This document shows positions 128-19,391 of a stretch of DNA of 32,420 nt, in pieces. The DNA lies in the NCBI GenBank assembly GCA_026988685.1, contig JALSKU010000218.1, positions 1-32,420 on the forward strand. Direction: 5' to 3'. Origin of the DNA: Campylobacterales bacterium (GTDB taxonomy: Bacteria > Campylobacterota > Campylobacteria > Campylobacterales > JALSKU01). How positions within the stretch are numbered: position 1 is the first letter of the stretch; the number at the start of each line of letters is the position of its first letter. The notes beneath the pieces were generated by a model. It did no database searches. It had not been told where the DNA came from and was given only the letters and a program-made list of their open reading frames with translations. The position numbers were made by a program, and so were the translations under genes.

Positions 128-1405
128 CTAATAGTGATTAAAAAACATTTTAGCTCTTATAAGTTTATATTTTTTGGAGCTCATTTTTTCTATCTGCTCT
201 TTTGTCAAGCTTTTTGCACCTATTATGTTCTCTGGTTTTTTTAGCGATAAAACTCCCTGAGTTTTCCTGTTTTTATCCATTATAAGAGGATTAACATGAC
301 ACTCTTCGCAACTTTTTGCATATTTTCCTATCGTGTGAGGATAGTATGGCACCCAACCCTCTATCTTTTTTCCGGCTATTCCACTTTTGTCATCTACTAT
401 CATCTTGCCATTTTTATCTCGGTAGCTAATCCTATACTGAAAAAGTGGGCGAATAAGCACAACCTTTCCATCTTTTGAATTTGCAAGATAGAGATCTTCC
501 CATCTTCGGTATCTATACCCGCTATACCAGATACCTCTTTTCATCTTTTTTAAGACCCAGTCAGGCATCTTTGGAGCTATCTTTTTCTTACTTTTTAAAG
601 CTCTTTTTAGAAAGTTTTTTAGATAACCATCCTCTTGCAAAGTCAAATTTTTCCACTTTTTGTAATCAGCTATATCATCCCTAAATACTGATAACTCATA
701 AGAGTAAACCCCCCAGGAGGAGTGGCAGGCTACACAGGAGATATTTTTATGATAGTTTGGATGATTTTTTTTGGCTATCTGTTTATGACAGTCGATACAT
801 TGAACTTTTTTCTCTCCAATCATATCCTTAAAAGAGTGGCAGCTAGCACAGGTTAGTCCCTTTTTAAAGTGAATATCTTGACTTAAATGGTGAAAGTCTA
901 TGCCATATTTTTGTGGAGGGAAAAAACCATCTTTTGTTAGAGGTGCCCTGTAACTTTTGTCATAATCTTTTGGAAAAAGTCCCTTGTAGTCTGTTCCAAT
1001 AAACTCTTTATTGTGACAGCTTAGGCACTTTTTCATAGGAGTTTTGCTCTTTTTAAATTCTCCTCCTATTTGATGTTTTGTATGACAAGCAAGACAATTT
1101 TTTCCTCTTTTCATCCCTCTTTCACCACTACTTTTTATACTAACATGACACTTAAGGCACTTTCTTCTTAAAAAATCATCAACCAAATCGCTTACACTCT
1201 TTAGACTCTTTTTGGAGAGAGGAATTGTCTGGTAGGTTACATTACTATCTTTTACGCCCCATATCTCTCTTGTTATATTTATAGCCTTTTTTAGAGTATA
1301 GTGTATAGAGTGCTTACACCTATTAGCATCTTTTTGATGGCAATCTATACAGCTTTTGGCAAAAAGAGAGATTGAAAAAAGAAAAATAACAGCTATTTTA
1401 AACAT
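128..1405 (-). CDS. Secreted multiheme c-type cytochrome, 8 CxxCH motifs
   Basis: 425 aa; signal peptide MFKIAVIFLFSISLFAKS; CIDCH, CLKCH, CLACH, CLSCH, CASCH, CIDCH, CVACH, CEECH counted in the translation. Confidence 0.92.
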   Translation of the reverse strand: MFKIAVIFLFSISLFAKSCIDCHQKDANRCKHSIHYTLKKAINITREIWGVKDSNVTYQTIPLSKKSLKSVSDLVDDFLRRKCLKCHVSIKSSGERGMKRGKNCLACHTKHQIGGEFKKSKTPMKKCLSCHNKEFIGTDYKGLFPKDYDKSYRAPLTKDGFFPPQKYGIDFHHLSQDIHFKKGLTCASCHSFKDMIGEKKVQCIDCHKQIAKKNHPNYHKNISCVACHSSWGVYSYELSVFRDDIADYKKWKNLTLQEDGYLKNFLKRALKSKKKIAPKMPDWVLKKMKRGIWYSGYRYRRWEDLYLANSKDGKVVLIRPLFQYRISYRDKNGKMIVDDKSGIAGKKIEGWVPYYPHTIGKYAKSCEECHVNPLIMDKNRKTQGVLSLKKPENIIGAKSLTKEQIEKMSSKKYKLIRAKMFFNHY

Positions 1406-3192
1406 TTTGTCTTTCCACTATAAAAAAGTTTTTTAGAGTTGTTAAAATCTTTATATATTTTATCATCATAACTGTTATGGCATATGATACACTTATATGC
1501 TTCTACTATCTTATAAAGCTCACTTTTATTAAAGCTTCTGGCTCTTTTTCTGGAAGTGCTTTGAAACTGCTTCCCCTCTTCTGAAACAAAAGCATCTATA
1601 GGATAAGAAAAGGGCATACCACTTGCATTTGAGTCATAGATCGGCTCAAACACAATCTTGCCATTTTTTATATCAAGATGACCTCTGCCAAGCCCTAAAG
1701 AAGCCGGATTAAAATGGCAATCCTCACAGCTTCTGCTTTTTAATTGTGTAGTGTGGGGATCCCATCCTGCCATAGCCATAGAGTGAAACTTTTCAACCAT
1801 TTTATCTTTAAAGATAGTCCCTACCACCTGACACCCGGGGGCAAATGGCATAATCTTTCCGTTATAACCAATACCAAGAGAGGGGTGCTCCCATCTCAAA
1901 AAGCTCCTAAACTCCTGCCACTGACCCTTCGTAACCCTCTTTGAAACCCAGTCAAACTGCTTACCCTTTTTTATATACACCTCATGACAGCCGTAACAAC
2001 TTGGCATCCATTGTGAATGACAAGCTGAGCAATCAAGTCTTTTATGGATTAAGAGCGAGTGGTAAGGCTTATCTTTCATCTGCTTGAGATTAAATTTTTT
2101 ACCATCTATTTTTCTGTAAAAAAGAGTGGTGTTATTATCTTTTTGAATATTATAGAGCGGGGTTGAGAATTTTCTAGTATAAGCGATTATGTTTGATTCA
2201 GTTATATTGCCATTTAGATAGAGAAGTTTTTTTCCCAAGGTATCAATCTTTTTAAATTTTGCCTTATGGCAATCCTTGCACTTTATATCTTCAGCATCCT
2301 CCATATGTTTATGCACTCTTCCATCACCCATTACACCCTTTTCGGTATGACAATCGATACAATCAAGCCCTGCTTTGGTGTGATGAATATCAGCCGGTAA
2401 TTTATAGTAAAATCTCCTGCCATCACTCATCTTGTGAGTAAAGTTGCCGTTTTTATATGGAGTTCCATATCCTTCACTCTCAAAAACCCCAATATATGAG
2501 AGTCCGATTCTATTGGATCTGTTATGGCACTTTAGGCAATTTTTGGTCGGTATCTTTGTTGAAAACTTTGCATGTTTATTGCCTGATCCTTTAGAGACTC
2601 TATGACAGTCACTACAACCCCCACCTCTTTTTACCATACCTTTATCAAAAACCTTTTCATCTTGGTCTATATGACAAGCAGCACACATTTTTCTAAAATG
2701 ATCCTCAGCAAGTGAACTCTGTTTGCTCTTTCTTATATCTTTTATACCTATAGTAGAGTTTAAAGAGTTACTCTCTTTCCATTGATATTTAAGTACATTT
2801 AGTATGCCGCTTTGAGTATTCATAAGGGATTTAGAGACTCTTTTAACTATCTCCTTGTGACATTTGGAGCAAAATATTGAAGCATGTTCAAGTCTAGCAG
2901 GGTTTTTAACCATAAACCGATGAGCATCCTTTTTGTTTGTTGCCCATCTGTTTCCACCGTGACATACTGCACAGCCAAATATCTCTACCTGATGAGCATC
3001 ATCCATACTGCTCATATCTTTATGGCAAACTACACACTGATCCACACTCTCTTTTTTTATTGCACCTTTACCGCCTTTTGGGTAGTATAAAATAGTTATA
3101 AATATCAGCAGAAAAAAAGATAAATATGAAATATATCTCAAAATATTATATCTTTTCAAAACAGAGAAACCCAGGTATAAAATATCATCCAT
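1393..3192 (-). CDS. Membrane-anchored multiheme c-type cytochrome, 12 CxxCH motifs
   Basis: 599 aa; N-terminal hydrophobic segment; CVVCH, CAVCH, CSKCH, CAACH, CSDCH, CLKCH, CIDCH, CKDCH, CSACH, CYGCH, CEDCH, CIICH. Confidence 0.92.
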   Translation of the reverse strand: MDDILYLGFSVLKRYNILRYISYLSFFLLIFITILYYPKGGKGAIKKESVDQCVVCHKDMSSMDDAHQVEIFGCAVCHGGNRWATNKKDAHRFMVKNPARLEHASIFCSKCHKEIVKRVSKSLMNTQSGILNVLKYQWKESNSLNSTIGIKDIRKSKQSSLAEDHFRKMCAACHIDQDEKVFDKGMVKRGGGCSDCHRVSKGSGNKHAKFSTKIPTKNCLKCHNRSNRIGLSYIGVFESEGYGTPYKNGNFTHKMSDGRRFYYKLPADIHHTKAGLDCIDCHTEKGVMGDGRVHKHMEDAEDIKCKDCHKAKFKKIDTLGKKLLYLNGNITESNIIAYTRKFSTPLYNIQKDNNTTLFYRKIDGKKFNLKQMKDKPYHSLLIHKRLDCSACHSQWMPSCYGCHEVYIKKGKQFDWVSKRVTKGQWQEFRSFLRWEHPSLGIGYNGKIMPFAPGCQVVGTIFKDKMVEKFHSMAMAGWDPHTTQLKSRSCEDCHFNPASLGLGRGHLDIKNGKIVFEPIYDSNASGMPFSYPIDAFVSEEGKQFQSTSRKRARSFNKSELYKIVEAYKCIICHNSYDDKIYKDFNNSKKLFYSGKTKCLK

Positions 3193-3953
3193 ATCAAAAG
3201 CAAAACTCTTACAATATTTTTATATTTTACAACTCTAAATAGAAAAAGTAAAATGATAGGAAAAACAAGAGTAAAATTAACCAAAATTGCAGGTATCGAA
3301 AAAGAGAGCAATCTTTCAGCCCCTTTAAAAAACCAAGGGCTATAAAGGTTTGCCCCCTTTGCACTTAAAGGTACATCAACAGGCATTTTTAAAAACAGAA
3401 CTGATAATACAACCATAAACAAAGAAGCACCAAGATACTCTGTTTTTATCGTAAACTTTCTAACATGTTTTAAAAGTATAAAGTATAAAATTAGTGGTAA
3501 AAATAGAATGTGCCATATAAAAAATTTGTAAGTTATGATGTTTGTGTCTTTGACAAGAGGTAGCAGAGTATCGATAAATGGAGTATCTTTTATAAGTGTA
3601 AAAGTTACATTTGCTGCTGCATTTGCACTCTGATCCCCTTTTAGAACAAAACCACTGAAAAGAAAAAAGATAACTGCCAAAAAAGCTACGATGGAGTAAT
3701 TCCAAGAAGAGCGTGTTATAGTGATCCTCTTTTGAGACAGTTCAACTGTCACATGAAATAGAAGAAAGATTAAAAAAAGTTCAGAGCTAAAGTAGTGAAC
3801 TTTTCTATAAATTTCTCCATAAGGATATAAAAATGTAATCTTTTGGACAGTATCATAAGCCATCGAAGGATGATAAACAAACACCAAAACCAAGCCGCTT
3901 ATCAAGGATATAAACAGTAACGGCAAAAGCATAAAAGAGAGAGCTTTAAACAT
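3156..3953 (-). CDS. Cytochrome b (b6-like) membrane subunit
   Basis: 265 aa, several TM segments; two His pairs (HYFSSELFLIFLLFH = H-X13-H and HILFLPLILYFILLKH = H-X14-H) typical of cytochrome b/b6; next to a Rieske gene. Confidence 0.85.
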   Translation of the reverse strand: MFKALSFMLLPLLFISLISGLVLVFVYHPSMAYDTVQKITFLYPYGEIYRKVHYFSSELFLIFLLFHVTVELSQKRITITRSSWNYSIVAFLAVIFFLFSGFVLKGDQSANAAANVTFTLIKDTPFIDTLLPLVKDTNIITYKFFIWHILFLPLILYFILLKHVRKFTIKTEYLGASLFMVVLSVLFLKMPVDVPLSAKGANLYSPWFFKGAERLLSFSIPAILVNFTLVFPIILLFLFRVVKYKNIVRVLLLIWMIFYTWVSLF

Positions 3954-3956
3954 CTA

Positions 3957-4376
3957 CTAACCTATTATAACATTATCTTTGACTATTTTAAATGCTATTT
4001 TATCCAAATCTCTCTTTGCAGGTCCTTCAATCCTCCCTCCATCCTTTGTAAATTTACTGTGATGACAAGGACAGATAAAGAGTTTTTTATCGTCATAGTA
4101 TCTCAAAATACACCCCATATGTGTGCAATGGAGATTTAAGACTTCTACTTTTTTACCTTTTTTAAAGATAAAAAACTCCCCTTTTTCATGTAGATTGACA
4201 CCCTCTTTTAGGCTTTTTAGAGGGATAAGGTATCTTTTTCTATTATTTTTATCAAAAAATATAAACTCTTTTGAACTAAAAAGAAAAACTCCCCCCAAAG
4301 TGTATGGGAGAAGCTTTATAAAATCTCTTCTTTTAAGATTAGCACCCTTCAAATTTTGAGCCACCATCACTTGCAC
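3957..4376 (-). CDS. Rieske [2Fe-2S] protein, Tat-type signal; a TTG start at 4352 would shorten the overlap with the upstream gene
   Basis: CTHMGC and CPCHHS Rieske ligand motifs; RRDFIKLLPYTLGGVFLF Tat-like N-terminus. Confidence 0.92.
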   Translation of the reverse strand: MQVMVAQNLKGANLKRRDFIKLLPYTLGGVFLFSSKEFIFFDKNNRKRYLIPLKSLKEGVNLHEKGEFFIFKKGKKVEVLNLHCTHMGCILRYYDDKKLFICPCHHSKFTKDGGRIEGPAKRDLDKIAFKIVKDNVIIG

Positions 4377-4695
4377 TCGGAGCCTCTTTTGCTTTTGATT
4401 CTTCTATAAAAGTATCAAAATCTTCTATATCACCATTATCAGCAAGTTTTTGTATAACATCATTATAGTTAGCCCATGCGGCCTTTTCCCAAGGATTTGC
4501 CTGTATGGCTTTTTGTGCATAAACCTTTGCAAGCTGCAAATTATCTTTTTCCACTTCAGCTCTTGCAAGGTCTATATAGTGTTTGCATAAAACCCTATCC
4601 ATGCTATAGTCCTGCTTGTTTTGTGCATTCATAGACATGGATAAAAATCCCATAATCAGTGCAATCCCTATAACTGAAACCAATATCTTCTTCAT
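4339..4695 (-). CDS. Small secreted TPR-like protein with C-terminal Cys
   Basis: 118 aa; signal peptide MKKILVSVIGIALIMGFLSMSMNA; helical repeat AKVYAQKAIQANPWEKAAWANY; ends KFEGC. Confidence 0.6.
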   Translation of the reverse strand: MKKILVSVIGIALIMGFLSMSMNAQNKQDYSMDRVLCKHYIDLARAEVEKDNLQLAKVYAQKAIQANPWEKAAWANYNDVIQKLADNGDIEDFDTFIEESKAKEAPSASDGGSKFEGC

Positions 4696-4707
4696 CTTTT
4701 CTCCTTC

Positions 4708-5301
4708 TTAATAGTTAACAGTAACATAGTAAACATTTGGCATAGTTCCCTCATCCTCTTTGAGTCTTGTTATGGATGTAGCGTCTCTTAAGAGTTTGGA
4801 AACATTGCTGTCAGGATCATTTAGATCGCCGAAATTTCTTGATTCTCCCACACAAGTAGTAACGCAGGCAGGATCCAATCCTTGAGAAATTCGAGGAAGG
4901 CAGAAGGTGCACTTATCAACAGACTGCAACTCTTCATTATAGTATCTTGCATCATAAGGACAGGCAACCATACAAGCCTTACAGCCTATACACATATCAG
5001 GCTCAACAAGAACTATCCCATCCTCATCTCTTTTAAAGCTAGCACCAGTTGGGCAAACATCTACACAAGGTGCATTATCACAGTGATTGCACAAAGTCGG
5101 CAAAAAACTTATAGTAGGATTGCCATGACAATCCTCGCCCTCTACCTCATAAACCTTGGTTCTATATGCCTCTTTGAGTGCCGGAACCTCCCAGTCAGTT
5201 TTGCAGGCAACATAGCAAGCATCACATCCGATACACCTGTCACCAACTATAACCATAGCCAAATTTTTCTTTTTATCAATTTTACTCTCTAATAGTCCCA
5301 T
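4708..5301 (-). CDS. 4Fe-4S ferredoxin-type electron-transfer subunit (PsrB/PhsB/DmsB-like)
   Basis: Cys clusters CIGCDACYVAC, CNHCDNAPCVDVCP, CIGCKACMVACP, CTFC; in operon with a molybdopterin oxidoreductase and NrfD. Confidence 0.92.
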   Translation of the reverse strand: MGLLESKIDKKKNLAMVIVGDRCIGCDACYVACKTDWEVPALKEAYRTKVYEVEGEDCHGNPTISFLPTLCNHCDNAPCVDVCPTGASFKRDEDGIVLVEPDMCIGCKACMVACPYDARYYNEELQSVDKCTFCLPRISQGLDPACVTTCVGESRNFGDLNDPDSNVSKLLRDATSITRLKEDEGTMPNVYYVTVNY

Positions 5302-5302
5302 A

Positions 5303-7555
5303 TCAAGCCTTTTGAAGTTTTACAAAACCGTTATGAAATGCTGCCGCACCACTTATAGGATCAACGCCATCACTTATAAACCAGTTATCTTTTGTCCCTA
5401 TACCATTACCTCTGCTCCAAAATTTTGTCTTATGTCCAAAGCCGTGGTTTATAAATATGGTCCCCTCTTTAACTCTTTTTGTAATTTTAAGTCTTTCGGG
5501 ATGGTCTGATCTATGATTGGTCTTTACATTTACTATATAAGCACTGTCTCCCTCTTTAAAACCATGCTTTTTGGCATCGTTAGGGTGTATCCATATAGGT
5601 GTATCATCTTGAAGCTCCAAAAGTACCCAGTTATTTTGACTTCTTGCGTGTGAGTGGTGCGGAGTTCTACCAAACATCATCCTAAACTCACCCTCTTTTG
5701 GCATAGGTGGATCCTTGTAAATCGGTATAGGTGCAAAATCATCACCATTTTTTTTCTGTATCTCTTTAAGATCAGGAACATATAGTTGAACTTTGCCTGT
5801 AGTGGTGGCAAATTTCATAAGAGCACCACTTGCACCGGGATATGGATCAACATCCTCAAAAAGAACCACTCCATCTTTTTGTAGTCTTGCATATTGATCT
5901 TCACTCAATACTTCAGACAACTCCTCCACCATCTCTTTTGGAGATTTTTCAAACCATTTGCCAAGTCCAAACTCTTCAGCCATTCCTTTGCATATATCAA
6001 AACACCCTTTTGTGTCATATATCGGCTTTATAGCCGGCTCTCTTATGGCTATAAACGGTGTTTTGTCTTTTTGAACATACGGTGCATCATATCTTTCAAG
6101 ATAAGTTGACTCGGGAAATATAACATCACTATACATAACAGTATCGGTAAACTGTGTATCTATCGATATTATAAGTTCAAGATTTTTTATAGCATCAAAA
6201 ATCCCATTAACACCTACAGGCGAATGGCTTAAAGGATTGGTTCCATAAAGAAGCCATGCTTTAACAGGATAAGGTTTTTGTGTTAAGGTTGCCTCATATA
6301 TACCATTGCTTCTTCCAAGTGCTTCCGGAGCTAATGGAAATTTTTCATCTTTACCGACTCCATCGGCTCTTTTTACTCCTTTTACTTCAGGGTGCTCCTC
6401 TTTTGGAAATTCAACCGGAACAGGATTTCTCACAAAAATACCTCCCGGAACTCCCCAGTTACCCATAAGAGCATTTAGTATAGCTATAGCTCTTACTGTC
6501 TGAGTATCATTTCCATATCTTGTCATCCTTCTTGGAGGGATCGCCACTACATTTGGTGCATTTTTTGCAAAATCCCAGGCGATACTCTCTATAAGTTTTG
6601 CATCAATTCCTGTCTTTTTACTTGCCCAATCAGGAGTGTACTCTTTTATATGCTTAACAAGCTCATTATAGCCGTAGCAATACTCTCTTACAAAATCCAT
6701 ATTGGCAAGATTATCTCTTATGATGACATGTATAAGCCCCAAAGCTAGTGCCAAATCAGTTCCCGGATTTATCTGCAACCAATTTGTAGCTCTAACAGCT
6801 GACTCACTCTGTCTTGGATCAATATAGGTAAGTTTTGAGCCTCTTGCAAGTCCTTCTGCAAAATCCGCAGCCTCTCTTACCTGAACAGAGCCTGCCATAT
6901 TTCTTCCAAATATTATCATATGTTTTGAGTTTGCCATATCGTAAGTCTCATGTCCGCTTACACCCGTTCCAAATGTTAAAGCCCAAGCCATCTCTCTACT
7001 TCCAAGACACTGAGAGTATGCCGGTATAGTAATATTTGGACTACCAAGAGCCAGGGTAAAAAGATGCACATATCTTTCACCTGTTCCATGCATAAATGTA
7101 GCTAAAGTTTTAGCACCATATTTCTCTACCAGAGGATTTAGTTTTTGATGAACATATTTGTAAGCCTCTTCCCAACTCACCTTTTTAAATTTTCCTTCAC
7201 CTCTTTTTCCTGTTCTTATAAGAGGATACTGTATCCTGTCAGGATCATAAGTAGAAGCAATGCCTGCATTTCCTTTTGCACACAGATGACCTCTGTTGTT
7301 AGGATTTAGTTTATTTCCTTCAAGCTTATGGATTCTTCCTTCTCTAACATAAGCATCTACTCCACAGTTCCAAAAACACATCTCACAAAAGTTTTGACTT
7401 CTCTCACCCCTGTCATAGTGTAAAAATCTCTCACCTCTTTTTTGAGTTGAAGCTTCTAGCGGAGAAGGAATACCTGACAGACCTGCTCCAAAAGCTACCG
7501 AACTTGCTCCGGCAAGCTTTAAAAAGCCTCTTCTTGATATCTTAAGTCTACTCAT
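5303..7555 (-). CDS. Molybdopterin oxidoreductase catalytic subunit, Psr/Phs/Ttr-like (ORF track start is 7582; ATG at 7555 behind GGAGGAG is more likely)
   Basis: Tat signal SRRGFLKLAG; N-terminal FeS motif CEMCFWNCG…C; molybdopterin-domain signatures; AYSQCLGSREMAW with a candidate Mo-ligand Cys. Confidence 0.92.
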   Translation of the reverse strand: MSRLKISRRGFLKLAGASSVAFGAGLSGIPSPLEASTQKRGERFLHYDRGERSQNFCEMCFWNCGVDAYVREGRIHKLEGNKLNPNNRGHLCAKGNAGIASTYDPDRIQYPLIRTGKRGEGKFKKVSWEEAYKYVHQKLNPLVEKYGAKTLATFMHGTGERYVHLFTLALGSPNITIPAYSQCLGSREMAWALTFGTGVSGHETYDMANSKHMIIFGRNMAGSVQVREAADFAEGLARGSKLTYIDPRQSESAVRATNWLQINPGTDLALALGLIHVIIRDNLANMDFVREYCYGYNELVKHIKEYTPDWASKKTGIDAKLIESIAWDFAKNAPNVVAIPPRRMTRYGNDTQTVRAIAILNALMGNWGVPGGIFVRNPVPVEFPKEEHPEVKGVKRADGVGKDEKFPLAPEALGRSNGIYEATLTQKPYPVKAWLLYGTNPLSHSPVGVNGIFDAIKNLELIISIDTQFTDTVMYSDVIFPESTYLERYDAPYVQKDKTPFIAIREPAIKPIYDTKGCFDICKGMAEEFGLGKWFEKSPKEMVEELSEVLSEDQYARLQKDGVVLFEDVDPYPGASGALMKFATTTGKVQLYVPDLKEIQKKNGDDFAPIPIYKDPPMPKEGEFRMMFGRTPHHSHARSQNNWVLLELQDDTPIWIHPNDAKKHGFKEGDSAYIVNVKTNHRSDHPERLKITKRVKEGTIFINHGFGHKTKFWSRGNGIGTKDNWFISDGVDPISGAAAFHNGFVKLQKA

Positions 7556-7556
7556 T

Positions 7557-8705
7557 TTAATGCTCCTCCTCTTTAAGCTCAAAAAGCTTTTCTCCTAGGA
7601 AATAAACTATCATAGCTACTCCTATTCCACCTACAAAAAGAGATATCTCACTTGTTGTCGGCATATAGTAATGAAGTGTAAATGGTATATTGTTGTTAGG
7701 TCTGCTGAGCAACTGTCCACCTACAATATTGTCATATCTTGAGAAGAATACCCCAACCAAAACACCAATACCAGCTATAAACGAAAGTATTGTAGAGCTG
7801 AATTTTCCTATAAGTATCATCACTATAGGCAAAACAATACCCACTATCAACTCAAAATAGTAAAAGTTTGATGAAAGTACACCATTACCTATAAACAGTT
7901 TTATAGTTTTTGCAAGTTCACTATCTCCTCCATAACTGTTCAAAAACACACTCCATACATCTACAAAAAACATTAGACAAAGAGCCAAAAAGAGAGTCTT
8001 GTTAAGAGCGATTACATTACTCTTGTATCTATTTCCTTGATTGTGAAAAGCTACTAACATAAGCACAACCGCAACACCGGCTGCAACAGCTGAGACTATA
8101 AACTGAAGCTGAAACGAAACTGAATGCCACAGAGGTCTTGTAGCATTTGAAGCAAAAACAAAAGCCAAGGTAGAGTATGCGACTACTCCTACAAAAAGCC
8201 CTACTAAAGAGGCAAAAAATGCTGAACCGTGCTTTTTGCTCATCAAAAAGTAAAGCTCTAACGCCAACAGAGGTAACTCAATCATATAGAGTGTCACCAT
8301 CCACCATATAGGTGAAGTTATCTCAAAATTTGTATAATACTTTAGAAGCCTTAATGTCTGCAATTGATAAGGACCTGCAAGCTCCCAAAAGATTATAAAA
8401 AATGCTCCTATCAGTGCTGACAAAGAAACAAGAGCGACTCTTTTTGGCATCACATCAAAAGCCGATATCTTAAACACATGTGACAACGAACCCAAAATCG
8501 CCGTCCCTGCACTAATACCTACCAAAAAAGAGTAACCAATGATCAACAATCCCCAAGAAACCTCTCTACTTATGCCATAGGAAGCCTCTTGACCATTTTT
8601 AAAAACCATTATCATACCATATATCGATATGGCACCAATCACAAAAGAGAGCACAAGCCAAAATAGACTTGGTCTGTTATGAATTGTTTGAGTTTGTAAA
8701 CTCAT
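7557..8705 (-). CDS. NrfD/PsrC-family membrane quinone-interacting subunit
   Basis: 382 aa polytopic protein; WGLLIIGYSFLVGISAGTAILGSLSHVF, typical of NrfD; operon position. Confidence 0.9.
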   Translation of the reverse strand: MSLQTQTIHNRPSLFWLVLSFVIGAISIYGMIMVFKNGQEASYGISREVSWGLLIIGYSFLVGISAGTAILGSLSHVFKISAFDVMPKRVALVSLSALIGAFFIIFWELAGPYQLQTLRLLKYYTNFEITSPIWWMVTLYMIELPLLALELYFLMSKKHGSAFFASLVGLFVGVVAYSTLAFVFASNATRPLWHSVSFQLQFIVSAVAAGVAVVLMLVAFHNQGNRYKSNVIALNKTLFLALCLMFFVDVWSVFLNSYGGDSELAKTIKLFIGNGVLSSNFYYFELIVGIVLPIVMILIGKFSSTILSFIAGIGVLVGVFFSRYDNIVGGQLLSRPNNNIPFTLHYYMPTTSEISLFVGGIGVAMIVYFLGEKLFELKEEEH

Positions 8706-9244
8706 ATCTCCTCCTTTATAGAGCTAATCAATTTACTGCTAATACCAACAACTTCCCCATAAAATTTACCTGTTAGAGACAAACTATTCAAAGAGTTTGC
8801 TAAATCATCTATCCAAGTTAAAAATTTGGTAAACTCTTTAAACTCTTTAAATTTATTTTCTTCAGCCAATATAACTGCAAACATTATCATTGAAGATAGA
8901 TTGTCCGCCGGCTTTTTCATATTGTATTCATCGTATACATAGCCGCTTGCTTTGTAGGTTCTGTCTATTTTTATGAGACTTTTTCCATACAATTTTCCAT
9001 CAAGCCACCATGATGCATAAGGAACACATCTTGACTCCTGAGACTCCATAACAAAGATTTTGATATATTCAGCCTCTAAATCCACTAGCTTTAACCTTGG
9101 ATTTAATTTTAAAGAGAGCAACTTATTTAACTTTTCTATATCACTCTCCAAGCCGTCATATGGATAGTCCAAAATATCTGCACACAAAGATAGTGCAGAT
9201 ATTTTATCGTCAATTGATAAATTTTTAAATGTTTTATTTGACAT
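8702..9244 (-). CDS. TorD/DmsD-family molybdoenzyme maturation chaperone
   Basis: 180 aa; LEAEYIKIFV…VPYASWWLDGKLYG…KKPADNLSSMI pattern of the TorD family; operon context. Confidence 0.8.
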   Translation of the reverse strand: MSNKTFKNLSIDDKISALSLCADILDYPYDGLESDIEKLNKLLSLKLNPRLKLVDLEAEYIKIFVMESQESRCVPYASWWLDGKLYGKSLIKIDRTYKASGYVYDEYNMKKPADNLSSMIMFAVILAEENKFKEFKEFTKFLTWIDDLANSLNSLSLTGKFYGEVVGISSKLISSIKEEI

Positions 9245-9249
9245 TTAAA

Positions 9250-10188
9250 TTAGTTACCACCTTTTACAAGCTTTCTTTTTGGCCATCTGGTATAGTCAGC
9301 CATAGAACCGCTATATACTCTGTTTTTACCATCTTCCATCCCTACAACATACTTTTGTACAAACCATCCACCTGCAGCCAAGTGACCTGTGTTGCAGTAC
9401 CAGATAACAGGTTTATTTGGATCTATTCCGGCTTTTTTATACTCTTTTAGAGCATGATTCTTATCTCCTATATACCAAACGCCATCTTTTTTTACAGCAA
9501 GAACTTTTATATGCATTGGTCTAGCTCCAGGCAAATGCCCCTCTTTTAATCTTCTTGGATCTTTTGCGGTACCGTCCCAATGCTTGCCTTTACCGTTCGT
9601 ATCAACTGTTTGATAAGCTCCAGTCCATACTGCTTCATCCACATCTTCACCGGTAGCTATGATATTTTGATTGAATTTTGTGATTTTATACTTGCTTTTT
9701 TTAACTTTTGGTTTTTTATTGCTTACTTCACCACCATCTTTTTTCCAAGCAGCAAATCCACCGTTTAAAACAGCAGCATTATTAAAACCGTAATACTCTA
9801 CAGTGTACATTGCCAACGCACCATCTCTGTAATCTTTTGCTTTTGTGCCACCTGCATAAAATACCACAGCACTATCTTTTGTAATACCACTTTTTCTGAA
9901 AGTTCTCTCCATAGCAAGAGGAGCTGCTATGTATCCCGGTATCGGCTTTTTTGTGATCTTGCTATAGTATCTCCCCTCCCTAAAGTCTTTACCTTTCCAA
10001 TGCACTGCACCCTTTATGTGCTCTTTGTTGTACCCTTTTTTTCTTACATCTATGATAACCAAATCCTTATCACCCATATGTGACTTTAACCAAGCGGTAT
10101 CAACAAGATGGTTCTTTGGAACCTCGAGTGCCATTGCACCAACACCAATAACAGCTGAAACGATTAGAGTGTTTACAACCTTTTTCAT
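9250..10188 (-). CDS. Periplasmic two-domain rhodanese (sulfurtransferase)
   Basis: 312 aa; signal peptide MKKVVNTLIVSAVIGVGAMA; rhodanese motifs VIIDVRKKGYNKEHIKGAVHW and PVIWYCNTGHLAAGGWF (catalytic Cys in C-terminal domain). Confidence 0.9.
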   Translation of the reverse strand: MKKVVNTLIVSAVIGVGAMALEVPKNHLVDTAWLKSHMGDKDLVIIDVRKKGYNKEHIKGAVHWKGKDFREGRYYSKITKKPIPGYIAAPLAMERTFRKSGITKDSAVVFYAGGTKAKDYRDGALAMYTVEYYGFNNAAVLNGGFAAWKKDGGEVSNKKPKVKKSKYKITKFNQNIIATGEDVDEAVWTGAYQTVDTNGKGKHWDGTAKDPRRLKEGHLPGARPMHIKVLAVKKDGVWYIGDKNHALKEYKKAGIDPNKPVIWYCNTGHLAAGGWFVQKYVVGMEDGKNRVYSGSMADYTRWPKRKLVKGGN

Positions 10189-18836: not shown

Positions 18837-19050
18837 TAGCTTAATTTTTAATTCTTATTTCAAAAGGTATGGCTATAAGCCGGGTTTTGTCGATGGATGG
18901 TTATTCATCTACGCCCATACTTTGCAGTAAGGCTTTAGCGAGAAGTAAAGCATAAGACTTACCAATCTTCTCTTGCTGCGGATTGGGTTTACATAGCCTC
19001 TTTGGTTACCCAAAGAGCTGGTGGTCTCTTACACCGCCGTTTCACCCTTA

Positions 19051-19150
19051 CCTGCCCATATTTTTCGCAAGTGGCTTTTCAAAAAAGATATATCAAAACT
19101 CGTTCGACATATCTCTTAAAAAAGCTAATAGCTAAAGAAATATGGGCAGG
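19051..19150 (-). repeat. 100-bp palindromic element, copy 1, forming P12 of rnpB
   Basis: CCTGCCCATATTT…AAATATGGGCAGG termini; base-for-base identical to 19237-19336; sits between GCAACAGAGAGTAGACCG and TAAGGGTGAAA. Confidence 0.95.
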
Positions 19151-19236
19151 CGGTCTACTCTCTGTTGCACTTTCCCTAGGGTTACCCCTGTCGTCCGTTA
19201 GACGAAATCCTGTCTTATAGCAGCCCGGACTTTCCT

Positions 19237-19336
19237 CCTGCCCATATTTTTCGCAAGTGGCTTTTCAAAAAAGATATATCAAAACTCGTTCGACATATCT
19301 CTTAAAAAAGCTAATAGCTAAAGAAATATGGGCAGG
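19237..19336 (-). repeat. 100-bp palindromic element, copy 2, forming P3 of rnpB
   Basis: Same 100-bp sequence; sits between P2 (GATGGTT) and the GAGGAAAGTCCGGGC core. Confidence 0.95.
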
Positions 19337-19362
19337 CAACCATCTGCCATACCTTTGGGAGC

Positions 19363-19391
19363 ATTATAGCAAAATTACCTGTTTTTTTCAA
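19363..19391 (-). promoter_or_regulatory. Sigma70-type promoter of rnpB: TTGAAA - 17 bp - TATAAT
   Basis: Minus strand TTGAAA (19386-19391), 17-bp spacer, TATAAT (19363-19368), then 6 nt to the rnpB 5' end; -35 lies inside the end of the amidase gene. Confidence 0.8.

Follow-up and report, generated by a model that had tools for sequence, protein, structure and literature searches.

Two peripheral hairpins of a Campylobacterales RNase P RNA are probably copies of one palindromic element

How do two separate helices of a single structural RNA come to carry the same sequence? The question is raised by a 32,420-nt stretch of DNA (the window, meant here at its full length) from the draft metagenome assembly of a Campylobacterales bacterium (232 contigs; the source genome, G000 below). 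A first-pass annotation had described two identical palindromic sequences inside rnpB, which comes after an N-acetylmuramoyl-L-alanine amidase gene. Comparison of the window with itself confirmed that positions 19051-19151 and 19237-19337 agree at 101/101 bases in direct orientation; their starts are 186 nt apart, the distance originally given, and 85 nt intervene. Both copies have the perfect 13-bp inverted ends that had been noted (CCTGCCCATATTT/AAATATGGGCAGG), the 100-nt unit is computed to fold into the single long imperfect hairpin that had been proposed (-43.5 kcal/mol), and no ORF of at least 80 aa is listed across either copy. The features of the locus are as follows.

18862-19356, minus strand: rnpB, RNase P RNA of class A, about 495 nt (RF00010, 225.7 bits; ends defined by the P1 pairing AAGGTATGGC/GCCATACCTT)
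19237-19336, minus strand: P3 hairpin, 100 nt, copy 1 of the proposed element (by identity; between P2, GATGGTTG, and AGGAAAGTCCGGGC)
19051-19150, minus strand: P12 hairpin, 100 nt, copy 2 of the proposed element (by identity; P12 insert in the RF00010 alignment)
19324-19336, no strand assigned: outer arm of copy 1, CCTGCCCATATTT on the minus strand (inverted pair I4)
19237-19249, no strand assigned: second arm of copy 1, complementary to 19324-19336 (inverted pair I4)
19138-19150, no strand assigned: outer arm of copy 2 (inverted pair I3)
19051-19063, no strand assigned: second arm of copy 2, complementary to 19138-19150 (inverted pair I3)
19152-19236, minus strand: part of the catalytic core separating the copies (GAGGAAAGTCCGGGC ... 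ACAGAGAGTAGACCG; from the sequence and the RF00010 alignment)
19363-19368, minus strand: putative -10-like box of the rnpB promoter, TATAAT (from reading the sequence)

The gene matches RF00010 as a class A RNA on the minus strand with a conserved core (E = 2.8e-72; bit-score cut-off 100). The match begins at 19301, within the first hairpin, since a P3 of 100 nt does not fit the model; the P1 pairing places the 5′ end of the RNA near 19356. The P12 copy is precisely flanked by ACAGAGAGTAGACCGC and TAAGGGTGAAA. The earlier assignment of the copies to P3 and P12 is supported. Subtracting both copies from the 495 nt of rnpB leaves 295 nt, the length that had been estimated, and the proposal that the native hairpins were replaced, not inserted into, is likewise supported. 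Elsewhere in the window, the minus strand of 128-10188 carries a cluster encoding multihaem cytochromes, a Rieske-like protein, a molybdopterin oxidoreductase (Pfam) and a rhodanese-like protein, which, to judge from the translations, looks like a system for the respiration of sulfur compounds.

Two further species carry such twins. In the congener G008, P3 and P12 are 99 nt each and identical at 95/99 positions (96%), and these hairpins are only about 67% similar to those of G000. In G276, a member of family f20 (possibly Sulfurimonas-like), P3 equals P12 over 67/67 nt, with an interior unrelated to that of G000. The outer stem CCYGCCCATAYTTT is common to the hairpins of all three genomes, and within each genome the two copies are equally oriented. 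When P3 and P12 were scored within and between genomes for 143 rnpBs from 21 families, the three twins reached 100, 87 and 67; the P12 5′ arm was one base short in this scoring, and only the P3 and 3′-arm scores were used. Since no P3 scored above 16 with a P12 from a different genome, compared with 100 in G000, the identity of the twins is beyond chance. The automatically placed P3 start was wrong in a few non-carrier rows (e.g., G011, G032, and G319). In G004, contig C142 (L043) ends 14 nt into the P12 element, within its last 28 bases, as expected for an unresolved repeat.

The twins of the two congeners differ from each other in an informative way. The interiors of G000 and G008 agree at 72/108 aligned columns; the P3 interiors score 68, against a mean of 35 (sd 6.9) for shuffled interiors, and the P12 version scores 67 against a shuffle maximum of 66, a narrow margin. 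Judged by their sequences, in a single alignment, the two interiors are homologous but diverged. On the same grounds, the two copies of one genome resemble each other far more closely than the orthologues do, which is a signature of concerted evolution. The SpoT DNA tree of the genus reads (G000,(G008,(G002,G006))), with G000 joining at 81/82; in the congeners G002, G005, G006, and G007 the hairpins are short, their ends still being recognisable, and G001 has none.

The 101-nt sequence is found nowhere else in the G000 draft, where the next matches, apart from the self-match of the palindrome, reach at most 31 bits, and no third full copy was found in G008. As full copies are otherwise absent from both genomes, copying within the gene, inferred from sequence and taking the form of gene conversion or of template switching, best explains the identity of the hairpins. 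Such copying would account at once for the identity, the equal orientation, the lack of further copies and the divergence between species; the agreement in orientation, with three cases, is weak support.

The ends of the hairpin extend well beyond the twins. The pair CCYGCCCATAYTTT/AAARTATGGGCRGG is present in the rnpB of three families. The Hydrogenimonas species G046 and G070 have the stem in P12 only, while the f20 species G288 and G360 have long P3 hairpins with it; P12 is short in both, with the same ends in G360 and unrelated in G288. The interiors are unrelated across the P3 hairpins of f20 (G276, G288, and G360) and the P12 hairpins of Hydrogenimonas (G046 and G070), whereas the ends are kept. 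A search of 399 Campylobacterales genomes for the end-pair at two spacings gave matches in P3 and P12 of rnpB only, save for three intergenic copies in G000. The reversed control end-pair had 0 matches in this search and a single match over all end-pair searches.

Are these occurrences inherited or gained? The rnpB cores cluster by family, with f20 split into two blocks, and transfer of whole rnpB genes between families was rejected on this basis; the forks of the core tree inside f20 are weak. Within f20, 22/25 P3 helices end in AAG and CAGG occurs only in the three carriers. The near relatives of G276 and G360 have an ordinary CTTG..AAG P3 and an unrelated P12, and in G312, the closest to G276 in the core tree, both helices are ordinary. 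Given that the cores follow the families and that P3 and P12 are ordinary in the near f20 relatives, repeated gain appears likelier than inheritance.

In G000 the ends also recur outside rnpB. The pattern search recovered copies on C153 (99 nt), C41 (57 nt), and C200 (58 nt), and a looser fourth on C97 (63 nt, ends AACTGACCCTAT) came from a 374-kb sample of the genome, in which 6/27 inverted repeats have such ends, a count that takes in both copies of rnpB. Each of the four is intergenic: gltB, a ferredoxin gene, and a gene of 400 aa each have one between their start codon and a -10-like box, and the C41 copy lies between glmU and coaBC, the names being taken from reading the translations. The C153 interior scores 49 against the rnpB unit, which is not significant (shuffled mean 45). 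The palindromes at C97:6840-6902 (L280), C41:15370-15430 (L276), and C200:3266-3327 (L268) are about 60 nt long, have the form AACTGNCC.TAT../..ATA.GGNCAGTT, and share TGTAG after the stem on one strand; those of C97 and C200 have a -10-like box on one side and a start codon on the other.

These results bear on the two origins offered by the first-pass annotation, a dispersed palindrome or gene conversion, and parts of each are needed. The search for further copies, whose failure was to favour conversion, returned no full copy beyond rnpB; in G000 the full sequence is confined to this one locus, and G008 and G276 are likewise twins. On the other hand, conversion alone is insufficient, because the outer stem is found with unrelated interiors at three to four intergenic sites of G000 and in the rnpB of two other families.

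The stem itself behaves as a helix under constraint. Over 16 distinct end-stems, 10/12 pairs have changed on both sides and 95.8% of the cells are paired, figures that are not a probability, as the rows are related. Taken together, the alignments indicate that the helix is maintained through compensatory change. In species with short loops the stem drifts with compensation, whereas long-loop species mostly keep the consensus; we infer that the short hairpins are decayed copies.

The explanation that we favour, and hold to be probable, is that P3 and P12 each represent a copy of the same palindromic hairpin element, whose ends are conserved and whose interior changes fast, and that the interiors are homogenised within rnpB. 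More generally, the distribution suggests a hairpin repeat that repeatedly invades rnpB and is then copied from arm to arm. Copies would be tolerated as P3 and P12 are peripheral helices. Once the same ends occupied both sites, intragenic conversion, or template switching between the palindromes during replication, could operate; this requires ends that resemble each other at the two sites, and the conserved stem supplies them. Either process would homogenise the interior, yielding identity within a genome and divergence between species. Later, loss of the loops and drift under compensatory change may turn the long hairpins into the short P3 and P12 of relatives. For the first arrival in rnpB, transposase-like mobility and hairpin template switching are candidates. 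G288 counts against a simple version of this scheme, in that a P3 copy need not have its source in a P12 that still survives. A bolder form, which we put forward only tentatively, is that of a selfish palindrome specialised on RNase P RNA, which would invade P12 or P3 depending on the lineage, spread to the other helix, and persist through tolerance and repair by conversion.

Alternatively, a MITE-like transposable element with 13-bp inverted ends could have inserted separately into P3 and P12, the identity then reflecting recent, near-simultaneous events. Bacterial MITEs (reviewed in PMC10969869) are indeed short and ORF-free with terminal inverted repeats, as is this 100-nt unit, and conserved ends with variable interiors, their intergenic dispersal in G000 and their recurrence in three families all fit such an origin. 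However, only the ends are dispersed in G000 and no additional full copy exists there or in G008; the occurrences are concentrated in rnpB, where the native hairpins are exactly replaced and not interrupted; and the same copy would need to strike both sites in three species. At 7/8 Campylobacterales sites the flanks show no target-site duplication above the control, C41 alone having a TAAAAA duplication between A-rich flanks. No autonomous partner was seen when sought through the exact 12-nt ends in the G000 draft, where these occur in palindromes only, although such an element may be missing from the assembly. We therefore regard independent insertion as unlikely.

Also unlikely is that CCYGCCCATAYTTT is the ancestral P12 stem of the Campylobacterales, vertically inherited and occasionally copied into P3 with no mobile element involved. 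P12-only carriers are known, and degenerate versions of the stem occur in the P12 of several Hydrogenimonas, f6, and f22 species. Yet the stem drifts freely within Hydrogenimonas while exact matches appear in remote families, close relatives of G276 and G360 have an unrelated P12 and an ordinary P3, and the intergenic copies of G000 are left unexplained. That a protein recognises the stem as a conserved motif, which selection instead of copying retains in rnpB helices and gene leaders, would suit the position of the three G000 copies upstream of start codons, with the fourth between glmU and coaBC, but this reading is very improbable: it leaves the identity of the interiors unexplained, the arms are anything from a few to about 76 nt apart, and the stem drifts in short-loop species. 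Finally, duplication of one hairpin in assembly, a worry natural for a draft of 232 metagenomic contigs and raised in the first-pass annotation, can hardly be credited, as each copy has its own correct flanks and independent twins occur in G008 (with 4 differences) and G276.

Repeats within RNase P RNA have precedents. The universally conserved nucleotides all lie outside P12, a helix that can sometimes be dispensed with, and STRR repeats are known in cyanobacterial rnpB (PMC2858038); these likewise represent a repeat family inside RNase P RNA, but are tandem short units, whereas a single palindromic hairpin occupies both P3 and P12 here. A cyanobacteria-like tandem arrangement was rejected, Tandem Repeats Finder reporting 0 arrays. 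Rickettsia palindromic elements, of about 150 bp, lie within genes, in protein genes in frame and encoding peptide (PMC10969869). They share with our hairpins the tolerance of palindromic repeats within genes, but the G000 element occurs only in a structural RNA and between genes, never in frame in a protein gene, and its interior is barely conserved. The open-access literature that we searched contained no description of a single element shared by P3 and P12. A viral origin was also rejected: viral scans gave no relevant match, the only hit, L264, being an unrelated phage locus.

Other inserts were seen in P12. The f6 species G319 (L193), G343 (L192), and G385 (L195) have a different repeat-like insert with GGTCAGACCC boxes, so that P12 seems open to more than one kind of palindromic insert. 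In the Hydrogenimonas family, the P12 region of G011 (L024), G060 (L231), G071 (L227), and G073 (L229) extends to roughly 130-170 nt and contains a conserved GGGCCCGCTGCCGAAGCGGAC-like hairpin that bears no relation to the G000 element, and the f20 species G027, G057, G156, G196, G205, G270, and G282 have a different, mutually similar P12 extension of about 100 nt (AGCTTTGCTTGTC..AAGACRGTTTAATGG). Outside the phylum, Candidatus Wolfebacteria PFKY01 (CPR) has two 106-nt palindromes (L110:5759-5864 and L113:6051-6156), 98% identical, with ends CCCCGCCCATACTTTG and short flanks that are alike in inverted orientation. Like the G000 hairpins they are palindromes of about 100 nt terminating in CCCGCCCATACTTT, but they are intergenic, with no rnpB in the two 8-kb loci, and the resemblance may be due to chance.

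Palindromic repeats in structural RNA genes are of an already known kind. What is unexpected is that two unrelated arms of one essential ribozyme evolve in concert: in RNase P, which processes tRNA, two separate hairpins of G000 are the same 100-nt palindrome, and two more species have twins with other interiors. Palindromes appear to land in RNase P RNA again and again, and conversion between two RNA helices encoded by one gene can here be tested directly. Covariation and phylogeny methods assume that the helices of an RNA are independent of one another; alignments of rnpB may hold peripheral helices copied from each other, and caution is advisable in their use.
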